Assembly (NCBI RefSeq): GCF_014174395.1
Contig: NZ_JABEQD010000007.1
Span: forward strand, 62,001-126,000
DNA: 64,000 nt
Reading direction: 5' to 3'
Source: Gluconacetobacter aggeris
GTDB taxonomy: Bacteria; Pseudomonadota; Alphaproteobacteria; Acetobacterales; Acetobacteraceae
Position 1 is the first letter of the stretch. Each line of letters starts with the position of its first letter. The position numbers and the translations under genes are program-made. Below the pieces are notes generated by a model, which had not been told where the DNA came from, ran no database searches, and worked only from the letters and a program-made list of their open reading frames with translations. Positions 522-57,498 of this stretch are shown here, one piece after another.

Positions 522-1163
522 ATGCCGAAAAAGACCGTACCGCCCCCCCGCACCGCCCCGCCGTCTCGGGCCCCACACCGCACACGCATGGCGCTGCTCG
601 GCGCGGCGGCATGCGGCCTGCTGCTGGCGGCCGCCGGATTGCGCACGCTGGTCCTGGACCGCCCCCATGCCACCATCGGGGGACCGTACGCGCTGACCGA
701 CGAACAGGGCCGCGCCGTCACCCAGGCCGATTTCCACGGCCACTACACGCTGATCTATTTCGGCTACACCCATTGCATCGATGTCTGCCCGCTGACGCTG
801 GCAACCGTCACCACGGCGCTCGACCAGCTCGGCCCCCGCGCAGCATCGGTCGTGCCGGTCTTCGTCACCGTCGATCCGGCACGCGATACCCCCTCGGTCG
901 TGCGCGACTATGTCGCCCATTTCTCGCCGCGCATCGTCGGGCTGACCGGCAGCTCCGCCCAGATCCAGCCGGTCCTCGCCGAATTCCACGTCCTGGCCCA
1001 CCGCCACCCGTCCATGTCGGGCGTCCCCGACGGCGCCTATCTGATGGACCACAGCTCGGTTCTCTATCTGATGGACGGCAACAACCGCCTCGCGGCAATG
1101 CTGCCGGTCGATTCCAGCCCCCAGGCCATAGCCGACCGGCTACGCACCGTCCTGAGAACCTGA
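522..1163 (+). CDS. SCO1/SenC family copper chaperone
   Basis: A 213-residue thioredoxin-fold protein, anchored or secreted by an N-terminal hydrophobic stretch (MALLGAAACGLLLAAAG). SCO proteins deliver copper to the CuA centre of cytochrome oxidase or act as thiol reductants in the periplasm. The copper site is visible as HCIDVCP (Cys-x3-Cys) after GYT, and the distal His lies in MDHSSVLYLMD. The start at 522 has AAGAGG just upstream; an in-frame ATG at 588 directly before the hydrophobic segment is the alternative. The neighbouring minus-strand metal-uptake genes fit a role in copper or iron handling. The TGA stop is the first triplet of a palindromic repeat. Confidence 0.9.
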   Translation: MPKKTVPPPRTAPPSRAPHRTRMALLGAAACGLLLAAAGLRTLVLDRPHATIGGPYALTDEQGRAVTQADFHGHYTLIYFGYTHCIDVCPLTLATVTTALDQLGPRAASVVPVFVTVDPARDTPSVVRDYVAHFSPRIVGLTGSSAQIQPVLAEFHVLAHRHPSMSGVPDGAYLMDHSSVLYLMDGNNRLAAMLPVDSSPQAIADRLRTVLRT

Positions 1164-1238
1164 GCGGACCCGCGCGCTGGCGGCGATCCGACGCGCGTTT
1201 CCGGTGCTTCGGTGCCTCATTTCCATCAAGGCCGAACG
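1161..1238 (+). repeat. Palindromic stop-codon element, degenerate copy
   Basis: The element starts on the SCO TGA and carries the shared core: CGGCGATCCGACGCGCGTTT, a degenerate GGTGC block and CCATCAAGGCCG. The second half is lost or decayed. The convergent PepSY gene ends inside it (its TGA lies in the CCTTGATGG complement). The same core recurs near 5.0, 31.8, 41.1 and 56.8 kb. Confidence 0.6.
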
Positions 1239-2575
1239 CGGCGCCCCGTCACCCATGCCGCCACCGCCAGCAGCAAAAGCGATATCCCCAATTCCGGCAG
1301 CAATACGCCCAGCAGAGCCATCACCGTAACGGCACCGACGCCCACGCGCCGTCCCGGCGAGGCGGCCGGCACGCCCCAGCCGCCCGGCGGGCGCCGCCGC
1401 AGCCACAAAATGGTCGCGGCAATGCTCATGGTCGCCAGTCCCCCGGCCACCAGCAGGTTGAGCACCTGATTGGGCCAGCCGAACAACTGCCCCTCATGCG
1501 CCGCCACGCCATAGCCGACGGCACGATCGACCAGCCCCTTGCCCGCAAAATCCTGCCGCGACAGCACGGTTCCATCCGGGGCAACCTGCACACTTACTCG
1601 AAGCGGCCGATCCTGCGTATCCGACCGCACCTGCCACGCCGCCCCGACCGCCGCCGGTGGCGTGACAAGCACGGGCGCCGACAGCCCCAGCCGCGCGCCC
1701 GTCGCCACCACATCATCGAGCCCGGCCAGACCATCCGGCGCGACCGCCTGCCCGCCGCCCATCGCCATGCCCGGCATGCCGGCCCTGCCATCCATGTCGG
1801 CATGGGCCGCGACCCGATGCCCGGCAATGGTGTCCCGCACCGGAACGGCACCGATCTCCCAATCCTGCACCGTCATCAGCCGCCCCACCCGCTGCTCGAC
1901 CGATTGCAGCGCATGCCCCCACACGAACGACCATGGCAGGCCGGACACCAGGAACAGCGCCAGGACCAGAGACAGCCAGACTCCGCTCACGGCATGCAGG
2001 TCGCGCCACCGCGCCCGCCCGGCCAGGCCAAGGCGCGGATAGAGAACGCCCGCCAGCCCGCTGCGCCCCCGCGGCCACCACAGATACAGGCCGGTGACGA
2101 TCAGCACGATGGTCCAGGACGCGACCATCTCCATGATGACCGACCCGACATTGCCCAGCAGCAACTGCCCATGCAGCTTGAACACCAGCCGCTCGAACCG
2201 CGCCTCCTCCGCCACCTGCTTCAGGACGGTCAGCGACGACGGATCGACATAGACCCGGATCGCCTCACCGCCCCGCAGGACAATGATTCGGGCCGCGCCA
2301 TGTCCCGGGCGCGGCAGTTCATAGGCCATGAACCGGCTGCCCGGCACCACCTCCAGCGCTGCCCGCACCTCCGCCGAAGGCGCGGCCGGCGCCCCCGTCA
2401 CGGCCGGATGGTCGTAACGCCAGTCGATCAGATCGTCGATTTGCGGCTTGAACAGATAGATCGCCCCCGTCAGCGCCAGCAAGGCGACGAAAGGCAGGCA
2501 GAACAATCCCGCCAGCATATGCCAGCGCCAGATCGTCCGATAGTCGGGCCAGAAGGCGGATCGCCCCTCACGCAT
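1226..2575 (-). CDS. PepSY-associated transmembrane protein (PiuB-like)
   Basis: A 449-residue inner-membrane protein of the PepSY_TM family. These are typically encoded beside siderophore or metal TonB receptors and are thought to act as inner-membrane reductases or transport partners. An N-terminal helix (WHMLAGLFCLPFVALLALTG) is followed by a periplasmic PepSY-containing loop, a second helix (SWTIVLIVTGLYLWWPRG), further helices and a C-terminal membrane pair ending near GRRVRP. The ATG at 2575 is preferred because GGGGGAG lies 6-7 bases upstream; a TTG at 2593 is also in frame. The gene starts 15 bases after the TonB receptor stop and is very likely cotranscribed with it. Confidence 0.88.
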   Translation of the reverse strand: MREGRSAFWPDYRTIWRWHMLAGLFCLPFVALLALTGAIYLFKPQIDDLIDWRYDHPAVTGAPAAPSAEVRAALEVVPGSRFMAYELPRPGHGAARIIVLRGGEAIRVYVDPSSLTVLKQVAEEARFERLVFKLHGQLLLGNVGSVIMEMVASWTIVLIVTGLYLWWPRGRSGLAGVLYPRLGLAGRARWRDLHAVSGVWLSLVLALFLVSGLPWSFVWGHALQSVEQRVGRLMTVQDWEIGAVPVRDTIAGHRVAAHADMDGRAGMPGMAMGGGQAVAPDGLAGLDDVVATGARLGLSAPVLVTPPAAVGAAWQVRSDTQDRPLRVSVQVAPDGTVLSRQDFAGKGLVDRAVGYGVAAHEGQLFGWPNQVLNLLVAGGLATMSIAATILWLRRRPPGGWGVPAASPGRRVGVGAVTVMALLGVLLPELGISLLLLAVAAWVTGRRVRP

Positions 2576-4929: not shown

Positions 4930-5000
4930 CGACTCAGACCTGAAAGAACGATACGAAAACCCACCGCGCCAGAGGCGCAGGGGTCGCGGGAACGTATGTC

Positions 5001-5112
5001 GAGCCTGATTGGAAATACGCGGCGGCAAGCGAAAGCAGCCTCGATGGCCGGTCGCCGCGGAGCACAGAAAACGCGCGCAGGACACCAGCACAAATCGTCA
5101 ATCAGGCCCTCA
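5001..5112 (-). repeat. Palindromic stop-codon element between DUF2946 and receptor genes
   Basis: Read on the minus strand it starts on the DUF2946 TGA. Its arms are GAGCCTGATTG (5001-5011) and CAATCAGGCCCTC (5099-5111), pairing with a two-base bulge. Inside is a diverged version of the core, with GGAGCACAGAAAACGCGCGC matching the GGAGCACAGGAAACGCGCG of the other copies. It occupies most of the gap to the receptor start. Confidence 0.65.
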
Positions 5113-5508
5113 GGCCTGAGCGGGCGGCCCCTGGGGGTAAAGGCTGAAACGGTGCTGGAAGGGCGGCCCGCGCACGGGCGGAAACACCCAGCCCATCCCG
5201 CTTGCGACGACGGCGCGGACCATGAAAGCGGCACCGCCCACCGTCAGGGCGGGCGTATCAAGCGCCTCGGCAAGCAGGACGAACCCGTCCGCATGCCCCT
5301 CGCCATGATGCGACCCATCGGGGCCCGGCGTCACAGGATGACCGCTGTCGCAGAACACCGACAGGCCGGCCAGTTGCGCCAGCGGATCGTCGAACGCGGC
5401 CTGCGGGCTCGCCAGCCCGCCGAGCGCCAGCCGCGCGACCAGCGCAAGCAGGACCAGCGGCCATGCGGCCCGCCACCTCGCTCCCCTGTCACGCATCGCA
5501 ACCATCAT
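5110..5508 (-). CDS. DUF2946-type small secreted protein
   Basis: A 132-residue protein with an N-terminal hydrophobic signal/anchor (WPLVLLALVARLALGG) and a Cys/His-rich middle: FCDSGHP, then SHHGEGH. This matches the architecture of DUF2946 proteins, which have no settled function but often sit beside TonB receptors and copper genes. The Cys and His residues are plausible metal ligands. A second in-frame ATG at 5496 may be the true start. It is the first gene of a probable operon with the receptor and the PepSY protein. A Pho-box-like tandem repeat lies about 43 bases upstream. Confidence 0.7.
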   Translation of the reverse strand: MMVAMRDRGARWRAAWPLVLLALVARLALGGLASPQAAFDDPLAQLAGLSVFCDSGHPVTPGPDGSHHGEGHADGFVLLAEALDTPALTVGGAAFMVRAVVASGMGWVFPPVRGPPFQHRFSLYPQGPPAQA

Positions 5509-24814: not shown

Positions 24815-24891
24815 AGGAGCATCCGAAACGAGTCCCGCCCGGCCCCCTGGGCCGCTCTCGCTCGCCAGCCCGCATTTCGGTCAGGGTCTCA
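24815..24891 (-). repeat. Palindromic stop-codon element behind thiD (half copy)
   Basis: It starts on the thiD TGA. GGGCCGCTCTCGCTCGCCAG followed by CCCGCATTTC (24850-24878) is nearly identical to one half of the copies near 31.8 and 41.0 kb, while the other half (GGAGCATCCGAAACG) is decayed. Here the opposite half of the palindrome lies next to the stop codon compared with the other copies. Confidence 0.6.
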
Positions 24892-25701
24892 GGCGCCGGG
24901 GGCTCCCCAAGCCGAATCGACGGTCACCGCGTGATTCAGCGGCCCCGCGCCGGCTCCATATCCAGGTGCGGTCGCGATCGCGGCCCGCAGATAGCGCCGG
25001 GCCCGTTCCACTGCCGCTCGCAGGGTCAGTCCCTGGGCCAGCCCCGCGGCAATCGCACTGGCCAGCGTGCAGCCGGTCCCGTGCGTATGCCGCGTCGGCA
25101 GCCGCGTGTCCGAAAATAGGGAGATGCCCGACGATTCGCACAGCACATCGGTCAGGATATCGCCCTCCAGATGCCCCCCCTTCAGCAGCACCGCCCGCGC
25201 CCCCGCGCGCCGCAGCGTTTCGGCAGCCCGGCCCATATCGTCCACCGTGCGGATCGGATGGCCGACCAGAACCTCCGCTTCCGGCAGGTTGGGCGTCAGC
25301 AGGCTCGCCAGCGGCACCAGATCCCGCATCAGCGTCTCCACGGCATCGTCCTGCAACAGGCGCGACCCGCCCTTGGCCACCATCACCGGGTCCAGCACAT
25401 ACGGAACATCCGGGCGGGCCCGCACCTCCGCCGCCACCGCCTGGATCACCTCTCCCCGGTCCAGCATGCCGCTCTTGAAGGCATCCACCCCGATATCGTC
25501 CAGCACACGACGCATCTGCGCCGCCACGAAATCGGGCGGTACCGGCAGGATTCCGCTCACCCCCAGCGTATTCTGCACCGTCAGGGCCGACACCGCCGTC
25601 ATGGCAAATCCGCCCAGCGCGGTCACGGCCTTGATATCCGCCTGGATTCCCGCCCCGCCGCCGGAATCGCTGCCGGCGATGACCAGGACGCGACCCTTCA
25701 T
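24889..25701 (-). CDS. thiD: Hydroxymethylpyrimidine/phosphomethylpyrimidine kinase
   Basis: A 270-residue ribokinase-fold enzyme that phosphorylates hydroxymethylpyrimidine twice to give HMP-pyrophosphate for thiamine synthesis. LVIAGSDSGGGAGIQADIK at the N-terminus is diagnostic. VSALTVQNTLGV, the VLDPVMVAKGGSRLL segment and the catalytic THGTGCTLASAIAA complete the family pattern. The ATG at 25701 is chosen (a TTG three codons earlier is in frame). It follows glmM by 18 bases and is the last gene of the long minus-strand block. No TPP riboswitch was seen before it. Confidence 0.93.
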   Translation of the reverse strand: MKGRVLVIAGSDSGGGAGIQADIKAVTALGGFAMTAVSALTVQNTLGVSGILPVPPDFVAAQMRRVLDDIGVDAFKSGMLDRGEVIQAVAAEVRARPDVPYVLDPVMVAKGGSRLLQDDAVETLMRDLVPLASLLTPNLPEAEVLVGHPIRTVDDMGRAAETLRRAGARAVLLKGGHLEGDILTDVLCESSGISLFSDTRLPTRHTHGTGCTLASAIAAGLAQGLTLRAAVERARRYLRAAIATAPGYGAGAGPLNHAVTVDSAWGAPGA

Positions 25702-25719
25702 GATGGCCAAGACGGTGCC

Positions 25720-31651: not shown

Positions 31652-31688
31652 AATCCAGCCACCCTCGGAGTCCCTCTCGACGGCCGGG

Positions 31689-31746
31689 CTCAAGAGCGTG
31701 ACCGGAGATGTGGGCTGGCGAGCGGAGAGCGGCCCGCAAGGCCAGG
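31689..31746 (-). repeat. Tandem partial copy of the palindromic element
   Basis: A 58-base unit (CTCAAGAGCGTGACCGGAG... to ...AGGC) that repeats the first 58 bases of the full copy starting at 31747 with few changes (GATGTGGGCTGGCGAGCGGA versus GATGCGGGCTGGCGAGCGA). It extends the array toward tilS. Confidence 0.7.
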
Positions 31747-31916
31747 CTCAGGAGCGTGACCGGAGATGCGGGCTGGCGAGCGAGAGCGGCCCGCAGGGCC
31801 GCGCCCGGCGTGCGTTTCCGAGCACCGGAGCGGAGCGGCCTTGATGGCCGTGAGCACCGGAGCACAGGAAACGCGCGTCGGATCGCCGCCAGCGCGCATC
31901 TCCGGTCACGCTCTCA
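31747..31916 (-). repeat. Palindromic stop-codon element, full copy behind cpoB
   Basis: A 170-base element beginning (minus strand) on the cpoB TGA. The outer arms GAGCGTGACCGGAGATGCG pair across the whole element (about 31751-31769 with 31897-31915). Inside are GCGTTTCC/GGAAACGC arms, two GAGCACCGGAGC blocks and the small palindrome CGGCCTTGATGGCCG. It lacks a T-run. Confidence 0.85.
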
Positions 31917-32864
31917 GTGGCATCCGGCGCGGGTGCGATAGGCCGCCTCGGCCGTCTTGACCCGCGGCGCCGGCGACGGGAACTCGCTCTTCAGCTTGGC
32001 CAGGGCCTGGCATGCCGAATTCTTGTCCCCCAGCGCCAGCAGCGACGCCGTCACGCCCAGCAGCGCGTCCGGCGCCCGGCCGGAGCGCGGCGAGCGGTTA
32101 TAGGTATCGTAATAGGCTACGGCCGACTGCCGATACTGCTTCTGTCCGGCCAGCGACTGCGCCAGCAGGAATTGCGCATCGATCTGCAACGGGCCGCGCG
32201 GACCGGCCAGCACCTGCTTGGCGGCCGCCTGCGCCGCCGCATAATCCCCATGCATCAGGGCCGCATTGCCGTCCCGCAGCACGGTTTCGGGCGTGGATTT
32301 GGCCGCTGGCGCCTCCCCGGCGCCGGCGGCAGCCGGGCCTGCCTCGGCAGGGGTCGCATCCGGCCCGGCCGCCGGTCGGGGCGCCGGGTGGCCACCATTC
32401 TGCATGGCGAAATTCATGTCGTCGATCTGCTTCGCCAGGGTCGCATTCTGCTGCTGCACCTGGTTGGTCAGTTGGTCGAGCTGCCCGCGCATGTCGCGCA
32501 CCTGCTGCTCCAGGGTCATCACCCGGTCCAGCAATTGCGCCGTCAGGTCGCCACCGGCCGGCGGGCCGCCATTGCCGCCAGCCTCGGGCGCGGGCGGCGG
32601 AAGGATGCCATTGCCCTGCCCGTTCCCCTGTCCCTGGCTCCAGGGCGCCGCCGACTGCATCTGCGAAAGCTGCTGGCGCAGATCCATGATCTGGTTCTGC
32701 AGCGCGATCCCCTCACGACTCGTCATCTGCTCGGTATCCTGCGCCCGGACCGCCAGCGGCGACAGGCCGGCCAGCAGGGTCAGGATCGCCAGCCCCCTTG
32801 CGCGCGGGGCCAGCCCCCCGCGATGTCGAAACGGCGAAAAAGGGCGGAAGGCAACAGACCGCAT
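31914..32864 (-). CDS. cpoB: Cell division coordinator CpoB (YbgF)
   Basis: A 316-residue periplasmic protein of the Tol-Pal system that couples outer-membrane constriction to peptidoglycan synthesis. It has a signal sequence (AILTLLAGLSPLAVRAQ), a trimerising coiled coil (LLDRVMTLEQQVRDMRGQLD and following Gln-rich stretch), a Pro/Ala linker, and C-terminal TPR repeats (GNAALMHGDYAAAQAAAKQV, QFLLAQSLAGQKQYRQSAVA, LLALGDKNSACQAL). It follows pal on the same strand. Its TGA forms the first bases of the palindromic element. Confidence 0.92.
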   Translation of the reverse strand: MRSVAFRPFSPFRHRGGLAPRARGLAILTLLAGLSPLAVRAQDTEQMTSREGIALQNQIMDLRQQLSQMQSAAPWSQGQGNGQGNGILPPPAPEAGGNGGPPAGGDLTAQLLDRVMTLEQQVRDMRGQLDQLTNQVQQQNATLAKQIDDMNFAMQNGGHPAPRPAAGPDATPAEAGPAAAGAGEAPAAKSTPETVLRDGNAALMHGDYAAAQAAAKQVLAGPRGPLQIDAQFLLAQSLAGQKQYRQSAVAYYDTYNRSPRSGRAPDALLGVTASLLALGDKNSACQALAKLKSEFPSPAPRVKTAEAAYRTRAGCH

Positions 32865-35234: not shown

Positions 35235-36227
35235 TCACGGACGGAAAACGAATTTGAGCTGCTGGGTTTGCCCCAGCATCGCCTTGGGTATGGGCAGTTG
35301 CGCGCAGGTCGGGCTCAGCACCGCCGCGCGCGCCCGTTCGGCCAGCGCGCGATAGGACGAATCGCCCGCCATCCGCGCCTGGGTCTCGGGCGCGAACTGG
35401 ACGATGCGGGCCATGCCCGTGCCATCCACCGTCACCACCAGATGGGCCACGAACTGCGCGTAATCCTTCGCCGCCGTATCCTCGGTATAGCAGCGGCGGA
35501 CGGCGTTCCCGATCGCCTTCTGCTCGGCCGAGTTCAGCGCATTGGTGATGTCGCCATCCGGCGCGCCGCCCCCGTCGGGCGCCCCGCCCTGCACCGGGTT
35601 CGCCCGCGCCTTCGGCGGATGGGTCTGCTTCTGGTCGGCACGGAACGCATCCAGCGTCGCCAGCAGCGAATGGGTATCCGGCACCGCCTTCTTCGCCTCG
35701 TTCGGCTGCGTGATGTGCGAGAATTGCTGCATCTTGGGCAGGGGCGCGGGCTCGGGCTGCGGCGACGGCGGCGCCGCTTCATGCGACGGCACGGGCGGCG
35801 ACGGCAGGGAAGGCGGTGTCGGCACGGCATCGGGCGACGGCTGCTCGACCTTGGGCGGCACCGGGGTATCGGGCAGCTTCGCCGGCGGCGTCTCCGGCGG
35901 CGGCGGCATGGGCGGCGGCGGAGGCGGCGGCGGGGCCGCTTCCTCGTTCGGCGCCTTGACCGGCGGCGTCGGGGCCGGCGGGGCCTCCTGCGGCACGGGG
36001 GCCGGGGCCGGCGCGGGCTTGGGCGCCGGCCTGTCCGCCTTGTGCGGCGTACCGCCGCTGTCCGAGGGGGCGAACTCCATCTCGATGGTCGGCGGCGGCG
36101 GCGGCTCGGGCGGCACGGAAACCGGCAGCCCCAGCAGCACGGCCGCCAGCAGCACCATATGCGCGACGCCGGATGCGACGATCGACCGCCGCATCAGGTT
36201 ACGTTCGGAACGACGCGGCGGAACCAC
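35235..36227 (-). CDS. tolA: TolA-type cell envelope protein
   Basis: A 330-residue protein spanning the periplasm, passing the TolQR proton-motive signal to TolB and Pal. A single N-terminal helix ([18 protein letters not shown]) is followed by about 120 residues of Pro/Ala/Glu-rich linker and a C-terminal domain resembling TolA/TonB ([40 protein letters not shown]). The start is a GTG at 36227 with TAGGAGAG about nine bases upstream; ATG 36194 is an alternative. It lies between tolR and tolB. Confidence 0.88.
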
Positions 36228-40932: not shown

Positions 40933-40993
40933 CGTCCGTCTTCTCTAACTCTTCATCAAATCGTCATCCATCACCGCCCCATCCGGCCTCCCG

Positions 40994-41155
40994 GAGGCTG
41001 GCCGGAAATGTGAGCTGGTGAGCGAGAGCGGCCCACCGGGCCGCGCCCGTCGTGCGTTTCCGAGCACCGAAGCGGAGCGGCCTATATGGCCGTGAGCATC
41101 GGAGCACAGGAAACGCGCGCCGGATCGCCACCAGCGCGCATTTACGGCCAGCCTC

Positions 41156-41158
<3 letters not shown>
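40994..41158 (-). repeat. Palindromic stop-codon element, full copy behind secA
   Basis: A 165-base element starting on the secA TGA. The outer arms are GAGGCTGGCCGGAAATG (left) and CATTTACGGCCAGCCTC (right). The core is about 90% like the copy at 31.75 kb, including GCGTTTCCGAGCACCGAAGC and GGCCTATATGGCCG, but the outer arms differ and still pair with each other. It fills most of the gap to yebC. Confidence 0.85.
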
Positions 41159-47103: not shown

Positions 47104-47943
47104 ATGTCGAACGCACTCTTCACCCCCGACGCCGTAGCCACGACGCTGGAACGCGTCCGGGCCGCCACGCCGCTGGTCCATAACATCACCAATATCGTGG
47201 CGGCCAACAGCACGGCCAACGCCCTGCTCGCACTCGGCGCCTCGCCCGCCATGGTCGATGCCGAAGAGGAAGTCGAAGCCTTCGCCGCCCTGGCGGCCGC
47301 GCTGGTGGTCAATATCGGCACCATCACCGCTCCCCAGGCCGCCGCCATCGCGCGGGCAACCCGCGCTGCGCAACGTGCCGGCACACCATGGATTCTCGAT
47401 CCGGTGGCGCTGGGGGCACTCCCCTTCCGCGCCCGCGTCGCGCTGGACAGCCTGGCCCATGCCCCGCGGGCGATTCGCGGCAATGCCTCGGAAATCATGG
47501 CGCTCGCCCACCTGCGCGACGGCCACACCGAACCACCGGCCGCCGGACGCGGCGTGGATTCGCTGGAAACCGCCGAACGGGCCCTGGCGGCAGCGCGCCG
47601 GCTGGCACGGGCAACCGGCGCCTGCGTCACCGTCAGCGGCGCCACCGACTACATCACCGACGGCACGCAGGTCGCCACCGTGGCGAACGGACACCAGATG
47701 ATGACGCGCGTCACCGCGCTGGGCTGCACCGCCACCGCACTGGCCGGTGCCTGCCTGGCCGTGGAACCCGACGCCATGGCCGCCTGCGCGCACGCCATGG
47801 TCCTGCTCGGCCTGGCAGGGGAATGCGCGGCGCGCGGGGCCACCGGACCGGGCAGCCTGCAGGTGCGGCTGCTGGACATGTTGTACCATCTGGACCGCGA
47901 TACGGTGACGCGCCAGGCACGGATCGCTATCCTGCCTCCCTGA
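47104..47943 (+). CDS. thiM: Hydroxyethylthiazole kinase
   Basis: A 279-residue ribokinase-like enzyme that salvages the thiazole moiety of thiamine. PLVHNITNIVAANSTANALL and LGASPAMVDAEEEVEAFAAL are the family start. DPVALGALPFR, IRGNASEIMALA and TDYITDGTQVATVANGHQMM follow, then the catalytic VTALGCTATALAGACLA. The ATG at 47104 follows a small GGGCGGGAGCCCCCGCCC hairpin that overlaps its ribosome-binding site. No TPP riboswitch was recognised upstream. The TGA starts a mini palindromic element. Confidence 0.93.
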   Translation: MSNALFTPDAVATTLERVRAATPLVHNITNIVAANSTANALLALGASPAMVDAEEEVEAFAALAAALVVNIGTITAPQAAAIARATRAAQRAGTPWILDPVALGALPFRARVALDSLAHAPRAIRGNASEIMALAHLRDGHTEPPAAGRGVDSLETAERALAAARRLARATGACVTVSGATDYITDGTQVATVANGHQMMTRVTALGCTATALAGACLAVEPDAMAACAHAMVLLGLAGECAARGATGPGSLQVRLLDMLYHLDRDTVTRQARIAILPP

Positions 47944-47998
47944 GCCTGACTGGACATGCGCGCCCGGTCGCCACCGGCACGCATGTCCAGTCAGGCTC
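47942..47998 (+). repeat. Mini palindromic stop-codon element behind thiM
   Basis: Perfect 19-base arms: GAGCCTGACTGGACATGCG (47942-47960) and its complement (47980-47998), enclosing only CGCCCGGTCGCCACCGGCA. The loop keeps the GGTCGCCACC that lies just inside the arms of the full copies, while the whole core is missing. It begins inside the thiM TGA. Confidence 0.8.
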
Positions 47999-48051
47999 CG
48001 ATCGACGATCAGGTCCACCCCGGCCCATCTTCCAGGAGGTCATACCCAGGC

Positions 48052-55765: not shown

Positions 55766-56740
55766 ATGGCAAATCGAGAAACGATCGTTGGCGCCTTTGT
55801 CGTCGGGGGTGTGGCCCTGGGCATGGGGGCCCTGATATTCTTCGGAAATTTCAACCTCTTCTCGCCCACAAGGCAAGCTACCGTGGTGTTCCAGGGCTCG
55901 ACTTCGGGCCTCAGCATCGGCGCGTCGGTCACCTTCCGCGGGGTGCGGGTCGGCGCGGTCGATTCCATCTCGATCACCTATGATGCCCGAACCCATGCCG
56001 CCTATATCCCGGTAACGGTCGAACTCCAGCCCAACCGCATCTCGATCGCCGGCAGGTCAGGCAGCCACCACAGCCTGACCCTGCAGAGCATGATCGACCA
56101 CGGGCTGCGCGCCTCGCTGAACATGCAAAGTTTCGTCACCGGCCAGGCGGAGATCGACCTCGATTTCGACCCCTCCGCCCCTGCGGTCCTGCACCCCGAC
56201 ATCGTATCCGGCAAGCGGGTCGAGATCCCGACCCGCCAGTCCGCGATCCAGAAGGTGCAGGAAACCCTGACCCAGCTTCCCCTGAAGGAACTGGCCGACA
56301 ACGCCCAGGCAGCGCTCGCCAGCATCAAGCAGTTGAGCGAACGGCTGGATCAGGACCTGCCTCCGCTGGTCGACAGCATCAAAGAGACCTCCGACCATTC
56401 GCGCATCGCCGTCGACAGCGCGACCCACGCCATCCAGGACCTGGAGCAACGGCTGGGTACGACGCTGACGGCCATCGACCGGCTGGCCAATACCGGCACC
56501 CAGCAGCTCGATGCCCGCGGCGCCGACCTGCACGAAGTGCTGCGCAACGCCAACGACACGGTGATCCAGGCCCGCGAGAGCCTGTCCGCCCTGCACGACA
56601 TGACATCGCCCCGCTCGGCCGACCGCGCGAACATCGACTCCACCCTGCGCGACCTGTCCGCCGCCGCCGCTGCCCTGCGCGGCTTCGCCAGCGACGTCGA
56701 ACGCAATCCGCAACTCCTCCTAACAGGACGCCGCCCATGA
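55766..56740 (+). CDS. MlaD/MCE family substrate-binding protein
   Basis: A 324-residue MCE-domain protein anchored by an N-terminal helix (VGAFVVGGVALGMGALIFFG). The MCE domain (ATVVFQGSTSGLSIGASVTF through GQAEIDLDFDP) forms the hexameric lipid ring. The long C-terminus is helical (LNMQS... to LRDLSAAAAALRGFASDVER), resembling PqiB/YebT-like extensions more than short MlaD. Its TGA overlaps the next ATG (ATGA) and also opens a palindromic element. Confidence 0.92.
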   Translation: MANRETIVGAFVVGGVALGMGALIFFGNFNLFSPTRQATVVFQGSTSGLSIGASVTFRGVRVGAVDSISITYDARTHAAYIPVTVELQPNRISIAGRSGSHHSLTLQSMIDHGLRASLNMQSFVTGQAEIDLDFDPSAPAVLHPDIVSGKRVEIPTRQSAIQKVQETLTQLPLKELADNAQAALASIKQLSERLDQDLPPLVDSIKETSDHSRIAVDSATHAIQDLEQRLGTTLTAIDRLANTGTQQLDARGADLHEVLRNANDTVIQARESLSALHDMTSPRSADRANIDSTLRDLSAAAAALRGFASDVERNPQLLLTGRRP

Positions 56741-57498
56741 GAGGCTATTCTCCCAGCCGGTCTGCCGGCGATCCGACGCGCGTTTCTTGCGCTCCGGTGC
56801 TCACGGCCATCAAGGCCGCTCCGCTCCGGTGCTCGGAAACACACGCCGGGCGGCCCGCTTCGCGGCCCTCTCGCTCGGCAGACCGGCTGGGAGAACAGCC
56901 TCTCCCACGCCGGGATCAACGCGTTCCGGCGTGGCTGGCTGGCCTCGTTCTCCCCGCCCTGCTCGCCGCCTGCGCGTCGCCGCCAGTGCGATTCTACACG
57001 CTGGGCGCACCGGCCATCGCAACGGGTGCGGTGCCGGTCGGCGCCGTCACGCCGGCAACGCCGACCGTCGCGGTCGCCCGCGTCACCCTGCCCGATTATC
57101 TGGATGGCCAGGACCTGATCGCCCGCGACGGCAACCGGATCGAACGCAGCGCCACCGGCCGCTGGGCCAGCCGCCTGTCCCTGGGCGCCACCGACCTGAT
57201 CACCGCGCGACTGGCCCAGAGCCGCACCGACCTGTTCGTGACCGACCAGCCACAAATCCTGCCCGCCACCTGGCGGCTGGCGGTCAATATCAGCCGTCTG
57301 GACATCGCCCATGACGGCACCGCGTCACTGGCCGCCGACTGGTCGATCATCCCGCATGACGAACACCAGCCGCTGATCCACCAGCGCGCCACCCTGACCC
57401 GCCAGGGCCCCGCCACGACCGACGATCAGGTCGCAACACTGACCCAGTCGATTTTGGACGATCTGGCGGAACGCATCGCGGCCGGGTGGCCGCGCTAA
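56737..57498 (+). CDS. PqiC-type ABC transport auxiliary lipoprotein with palindromic insert
   Basis: A 253-codon frame. From about residue 66 it is an outer-membrane lipoprotein of the ABC-transport auxiliary family (PF03886, PqiC-like): lipobox WLAGLVLPALLAACAS, then VRFYTLGAPAIATG, VAVARVTLPDYLDGQDLIAR and LAVNISRLDI. Codons 2 to about 56 are encoded by a palindromic element (AGDPTRVSCAPVLTAIKAAP and on). No ATG, GTG or TTG lies in frame between the element and the signal peptide. Translation thus apparently starts at the ATGA overlap and runs through the element, placing 60 residues before the signal. Either the protein tolerates this, a non-standard start is used, or the gene is impaired. 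Confidence 0.8.
   Translation: MRGYSPSRSAGDPTRVSCAPVLTAIKAAPLRCSETHAGRPASRPSRSADRLGEQPLPRRDQRVPAWLAGLVLPALLAACASPPVRFYTLGAPAIATGAVPVGAVTPATPTVAVARVTLPDYLDGQDLIARDGNRIERSATGRWASRLSLGATDLITARLAQSRTDLFVTDQPQILPATWRLAVNISRLDIAHDGTASLAADWSIIPHDEHQPLIHQRATLTRQGPATTDDQVATLTQSILDDLAERIAAGWPR
56738..56904 (+). repeat. Palindromic stop-codon element, full copy inside the lipoprotein gene
   Basis: A 166-base element from the mlaD TGA. Its outer arms are 29 bases long (56739-56767 and 56876-56904), matching at 28: GAGAGGCTATTCTCCCAGCC plus GGTCTGCCG. The core is the common one (GGCGATCCGACGCGCGTTTC, CGGTGCTCACGGCCATCAAG, GGTGCTCGGAAACACACGCC). The outer arms are unlike those of any other copy. Confidence 0.88.

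Follow-up and report, generated by a model that had tools for sequence, protein, structure and literature searches.

Does the palindrome that begins on the stop codon of cpoB in the window, i.e., the whole 64-kb stretch of DNA analyzed here, belong to a repeat family anchored on stop codons and, if so, what places it there? The element (31750-31916, minus strand) is an imperfect palindrome of 167 nt with a predicted fold of -123 kcal/mol (z -10.9). It represents a family of folded units of ~165 bases, which occur in dozens of copies in each genome of one group of acetic acid bacteria. Read in the same sense as the upstream gene, a unit opens with a triplet that is often TNA, most commonly a TGA stop, followed by a variable outer arm that usually has a GAG-like start. 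A long stem then leads to an apical core, in which two copies of CTCCGGTGCTC flank a small GGCC...GGCC hairpin. The 3' half carries a side hairpin and the second arm, after which TNA recurs in part of the copies. The side hairpin is absent from the ~147-nt forms of other genera (G055, G092, and one copy in G014), and short forms span 62-145 nt.

Seven loci in the window each start on a TGA that ends an open reading frame, as the first-pass annotation had proposed, with the thiM codon (47941-47943) lying one base before the position originally given. Only three are full-length. Each of these comprises 167 nt whose first bases form the TGA stop of the upstream gene: the cpoB copy, with its TGA at 31914-31916 (ORF 31914-32864, minus strand), the secA copy (40992-41158, minus strand), and the mlaD copy (56738-56904, plus strand). 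These three score 157-187 bits with R1, a covariance model built from 28 copies. The thiM site instead holds a 62-nt short form consisting of the outer stem and a small loop (47940-48001, plus strand, orientation ambiguous; ~41 bits), and a weak, diverged copy lies 3' of ORF 5110-5508 (4999-5112, minus strand; R1 E-value 0.15). The last two are truncated remnants, neither reported by R1 at E-values up to 1. One lies 3' of ORF 282-1163 (1161-1240, plus strand, right limit set by eye; direct repeat D8) and the other, in reverse orientation, lies 3' of thiD (ORF 24889-25710; remnant 24833-24891, minus strand, left limit set by eye), where the TGA is followed by the reverse complement of the right arm of the element. 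Pfam supports the gene names secA (SecA domains), thiM (HK family), mlaD, and thiD (Phos_pyr_kin), whereas cpoB is named solely from TPR_6 and TolA_bind_tri matches that both fall below Pfam cut-offs; DUF2946 and SCO, for ORFs 5110-5508 and 282-1163, are the names of the first-pass annotation.

Some copies are arranged in tandem. The right half of the element is repeated directly 3' of the cpoB copy (31682-31749, minus strand; direct repeat D3), and in the relative G001 the R1 model places a second copy of 162 nt after the first at the cpoB site (L114 12324-12485). Further tandem or partial tandem copies were seen at G000:C20:34487-34985 and G000:C2:270352-270779. The window also contains a run of GGC-rich imperfect repeats (family D1) at 35734-36129, mostly within ORF 35235-36227.

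The copies had been described as lying mostly between genes, which does not hold at mlaD, where the element falls within the N-terminal part of the following reading frame. The mlaD TGA shares bases with the ATG of this gene (ATGA), and the element runs in frame within ORF 56737-57498, an ABC-transport auxiliary lipoprotein gene (ABC_trans_aux). It adds ~55 codons to the lipoprotein reading frame, which is open in all seven element-bearing genomes (window ORF 56737-57498 and its orthologs in L113, L115, L117, L120, L121, and L123). A lipobox-like LAAC motif follows 3' of the in-frame element, and the N-terminus is short in all four element-free genomes.

We used R1 to survey the genome from which the window derives (4.32 Mb, 61 contigs). 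The search returned 85 rows and, once four rows representing the opposite strand of an already listed place were removed, 81 non-redundant places. Genes were called with a custom hexamer caller trained on the same genome, not a standard program, which placed secA on the correct strand and ended it at the correct stop. A same-sense upstream gene ended within -8 to +16 of the left end in 58 of the 81 copies (72%). The offset was 0 in 29 copies (28 TGA, one TAG), +8 in eight, +2 in six, +1 in five, and another value in ten. Among TNA sites that were intergenic or fell within the final 16 nt of a gene, counted in both orientations over 395 kb, the corresponding frequency was 8.3% (394/4774), or 5.0% at offset 0 (p = 2e-44 for 58/81); within the same 395 kb, 18 of 22 copies were anchored. 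Of the 58 copies with a length of 150 nt or more, 42 were anchored. We assigned the thiM short form by hand to the plus strand, which scores slightly above the minus strand listed by the genome scan, and 57/80 copies are anchored without it; the orientation of the remaining short forms is likewise ambiguous.

These counts correct the original claim that the element always begins on TGA: 23 of the 81 copies are unanchored, and the anchoring stops include TAG and TAA, at offsets from -5 to +14. Slippage in CTGAGAGCCTGA, where two CTGA motifs lie eight bases apart, can account for several of the offsets other than 0, as judged from single loci. At one copy with an offset of +8 (C2:211743), the protein of G007, an element-free relative, terminates at this codon too. 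Random placement of genome-wide matches relative to stop codons had been set beforehand as the outcome that would count against anchoring, and the R1 survey found placement to be non-random. With a null of 8.3%, a p-value of 2e-44, and a fold z-score of -10.9, chance placement is excluded. The observation of a stop-codon-anchored repeat is confirmed and is stronger genome-wide.

The family extends beyond this genome. Matches were present in all 14 genomes of the genus and in at least 23 of 120 genomes, representing at least 21 of 102 genera, in a sample of the family scanned with stricter filters and a ceiling of 23 scored candidates per genome. When named genomes were scanned for a 48-base segment of the core, four stretches matched exactly, all from Gluconacetobacter (three species) of the family Acetobacteraceae, which makes this the probable genus of the window. 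Among 40 copies from five other genera, taken as the high-scoring places of five genomes with several to many matches, 27 were anchored at the left end and one at the right end only (L214); by genome, anchoring was 8/10 in G055, 7/10 in G046, 6/8 in G014, 4/10 in G092, and 2/2 in G098. When the single best locus per genome was considered, 8/9 loci in genus genomes and 10/13 in family genomes were anchored, with four of 26 loci omitted for incomplete flanks and with L031 and L032 representing the cpoB site in relatives. The two counts share loci (L169/L206, L171/L236, and L173/L216) and are not additive. A phage search gave no match to the element, and a plasmid search gave only one partial match, covering 43% of the query, in Mesorhizobium.

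Mobility of the element is well supported by comparisons of orthologous sites. At secA, the element is present in 6/13 genomes and absent from 7/13; the respective counts are 4/11 and 7/11 at cpoB, and 7/11 and 4/11 at mlaD. Because element-free relatives stop at the same codon at secA, cpoB, mlaD, and thiM (with TAG for TGA at secA in G008), the stop predates the element. The borders carry a further signature. Among copies with clear arms (67/81 in the own genome, 14 omitted; 37/40 in other genera, three omitted), the triplet at the right border was TNA in 21/67, compared to 0-6 at the next 14 offsets, and in 10/37, compared to 0-3 at the next offsets, respectively. At C2:239262, the sole clear filled/empty pair, the own genome has TGA on both sides of the element, and in G001 and G009 the TGA stop stands without it. 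Three copies in G055 read TTA-element-TTA, and in two of these the target contributes TA, and the element its first G, to the TAG stop of the gene. The left and right triplets are identical in just 10/67 copies, which is not significant (7.2 expected; 256/2000 shuffles reach 10); either the duplications have decayed or in part there were none.

The genus also encodes candidate helpers. Transposases matching PF13340 were found in 13/14 genus genomes, and both of the two tested belong to the IS5 family (NCBIfam); the number of matches was 25 in G003, 34 in G004, and 0-16 in the other genus genomes. Both ends of the insertion sequence (IS) were readable in five of 30 loci (L142, L151, L160, L161, and L162). 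These five copies are 0.88-0.93 kb long and have GAG-type ends, mostly GAGCC(C/T)G, with TNA duplications that read TTA/TAA or TCA depending on strand, TCA being TGA read on the opposite strand. We take the IS5-family elements of the genus to be of the IS1031 group, which has a TNA target. No IS with the full terminal sequence of the element was found, the resemblance being in the type of ends at these 5/30 loci, and a search for IS ends without the TNA filter yielded chiefly chance pairs. As a weak test, none of these five was located at a called stop.

The earlier suggestion of a non-autonomous mobile palindrome gains support from the presence/absence patterns, the TNA borders, the C2:239262 pair, and IS5-family elements whose ends and duplications are of a matching type. 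Its proposed TGAG target gives way to what looks like TNA. With TNA at the borders, TGA or TAA stops survive insertion, and stop anchoring is partly a target-site effect. The unit inserts at TNA and duplicates it, a well-supported step that leaves a TGA or TAA stop intact; its first base, G, equally preserves a TAG stop at TTA|G, which is also well supported. The transposases of IS5-family elements, whose ends it resembles, may mobilize it in trans.

This raises the possibility that the repeat is a purely selfish and functionless MITE (miniature inverted-repeat transposable element), for which a TNA target combined with purifying selection elsewhere would yield the anchoring. The TNA borders, the presence/absence among close relatives, and the status of TGA and TAA stops as TNA sites that survive insertion all agree with such an origin. 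However, TNA targeting alone predicts neither the frequency of anchoring nor its orientation. Only 237 of 2277 noncoding TNA sites are stops, and the null values of 5.0% at offset 0 and 8.3% within -8 to +16 compare to 29 and 58 of 81 copies; an even orientation would also be expected. Instead, a left end at the stop in the sense orientation of the gene is far commoner than TNA targeting allows. Anchoring by the right end only within -8 to +16 was seen in 0/81 copies, since the three right-anchored copies are all left-anchored as well. Widening the range to -15 gave 60 left-anchored and three right-only copies, one of the latter full-length (at least 150 nt, at -12). Ordinary MITEs, moreover, have conserved ends and a less conserved interior, a pattern not found here: there are 61 distinct left arms in 67 copies, and the near-invariant core is less variable than the ends. 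We consider a purely selfish origin unlikely.

Orientation-specific targeting to stops, e.g., by a recombinase that recognizes the structure of the folded bottom strand, as in integron attC or REP/RAYT systems, would account for the strong orientation bias. It would also fit the better folding of the bottom strand, arms that conserve pairing over sequence, and the secA and cpoB stops that each hold copies with differing arms. At secA, two unrelated arm pairs occupy one stop in different species. The candidate enzymes were not found in the genus, however: Y1_Tnp (RAYT) was found in 0/14 genus genomes, in a search whose control gave a match in 5/14, E. coli among them, and an integron integrase above cut-off was found in 0/14. 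TNA borders are in keeping with a DDE transposase and argue against this route, and the left triplets of unanchored copies include TCA besides TGA, so that the unit does not always face TGA. Such targeting thus also seems improbable.

The arms and the core behave differently. Both sides were altered in 23 of the 58 consensus pairs. At the mlaD site, where seven orthologous genomes could be compared, 11 of 28 arm pairs had changed on both sides and 94% of cells pair, compared to 30-48% in shifted registers; the covariation score was reached by 0/500 shuffles, and in one of the five measures, that of further pair types, there was no excess (13 vs. 14.0 in shuffles). The arms therefore alter jointly at one site after insertion. 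These changes look like exchange between copies or hairpin-templated correction, which is a mutational process of quasi-palindromes. At the C2:245648 locus, G009 (L201) carries a mosaic that combines the left arm of one type with the right arm of another. We propose that either DNA-level process may make the arms change together. In an alignment of 26 copies, hand-picked from the 40 of the five other genera, and two window copies, the core, TGCGCTCCGGTGCTCACGGCC-(3-4 nt)-AGGCCGCTCCGCTCCGGTGCTCG, hardly varies, in contrast to widely divergent arms. Conservation of the core across genera is partly ascertainment, given that the copies were found by a model holding that core; in the own genome, the core is likewise the less variable part.

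The two strands of the element also differ. The antisense strand folds better in 57/58 own copies and 39/40 copies of other genera, by means of 17.6 and 19.7 kcal/mol, respectively, the own set being limited to copies of 150 nt or more (23 of 81 excluded); these 98 cases share a consensus and are not independent. In controls, the difference was +8.9 (sd 9.2) for random 167-mers of contig C7, -4.9 for coding sequences, and +3.5 for 3' intergenic sequences (sd ~15). Mismatches in the sense strand were A.C rather than G.U in 32 vs. 18 cases in the own genome, with one fixed-mismatch position omitted, and in 31 vs. 2 cases in other genera. The excess of A.C together with the better antisense fold is not what selection for a sense RNA stem would produce, and this asymmetry between the strands counts against the simplest RNA explanation. 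A palindrome acting as DNA, i.e., a cruciform, protein-binding, or replication site merely tolerated at gene ends, would agree with sense-strand G-U pairs not being favored and with pairing that is kept even within a coding frame. It makes no prediction of orientation relative to the gene, and we judge it very unlikely.

The alternative suggested in the first-pass annotation, a 3'-end RNA structure, is consistent with the position and orientation of the copies but less so with the other results: convergent neighbors are not in excess (40 same and 18 opposite vs. a background of 232 and 110), T-runs are rare, and G-U is not favored in the sense strand. Rfam gave no gathering match in the window and no match up to an E-value of 1 on the element in the seven loci, with three weak matches elsewhere. 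Intrinsic or bidirectional transcription terminators would explain a stable hairpin directly 3' of genes, but with TTTT 3' of the right end in just 3/81 copies (5/81 on the antisense side), no excess of convergent neighbors, and the mlaD copy within a coding frame, we hold this reading to have little chance of being correct.

On balance, we give about an even chance to a reading in which the element is a MITE-like palindrome and its conserved hairpin has been kept as a 3'-UTR element in sense orientation, with a function that the placement would suggest. A function of the core is considered because of its conservation and the orientation of the units: it may be a hairpin with a function in the 3' UTR of the gene upstream, where selection would maintain it. 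Its targets might be the terminating ribosome or the mRNA 3' end, a role reported for E. coli REPs within 15 nt of the stop. In a more specific and tentative version, a selfish palindrome would carry the conserved hairpin as cargo acting at translation termination, and mobility would disperse a regulatory 3'-UTR module among dozens of genes in each genome. Equally tentatively, the unit would be placed or kept at the stop in the sense orientation, with arms free to vary while pairing.

No named or described family matching the element was found in the open-licence papers searched, and several known systems share some of its features. The IS5-family elements of the genus share the TNA duplication and GAG-type ends, but are 0.88-0.93 kb long and encode a transposase, and the weak test of the five resolved copies placed none at a called stop. 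Mycobacterial MIRU elements insert at DTGA sites between overlapping genes, a likeness by their general description, but are not known to be palindromic. Rickettsia palindromic elements are palindromic repeats in frame inside genes, like the copy in the gene 3' of mlaD, and differ in that most copies here lie 3' of stops and are not in frame. The nearest functional precedent is provided by E. coli REPs, hairpin repeats directly 3' of stops. Copies within 15 nt of a stop are reported, from an earlier study, to cause ribosome stalling and reduced translation (PMC12306157). They differ in size (20-40 bp; PMC3733652), in the share close to a stop (446/4072 within 15 nt, PMC12306157, vs. 58/81 here), and in that no RAYT-type transposase was found in this genus. 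The termini of GTAG-tagged REPs are described as often supplying the TAG stop of flanking ORFs, with some copies within ORFs (PMC3733652), but these are small palindromes with a GTAG tag, in contrast to the ~165-nt unit with a TNA border, sense orientation, and conserved apical core. The enterobacterial ERIC and YPAL (RU-1, RU-2) elements are similar in size (127-168 bp), MITE-like, and intergenic, with some in-frame copies in genes (PMC2229807, PMC2759123). They occur in other hosts, with TA at the ends of ERIC and variable duplications of 3-26 bp for YPAL, and strict stop anchoring is not among the features that the cited passages describe (PMC2229807, PMC2759123).

Small palindromic repeats are common in bacteria, and their location is usually just termed intergenic. 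Here, position relative to the stop and orientation are measurable and are strongly biased in six genera, more weakly in one of them. The element is a palindrome that keeps its pairing through paired changes in place. At the mlaD site, it lengthens an open lipoprotein reading frame by ~55 codons in seven genomes. Moreover, filled and empty alleles of one gene in close species allow a direct test of whether repeats of this kind are junk, terminators, or elements of translation termination.
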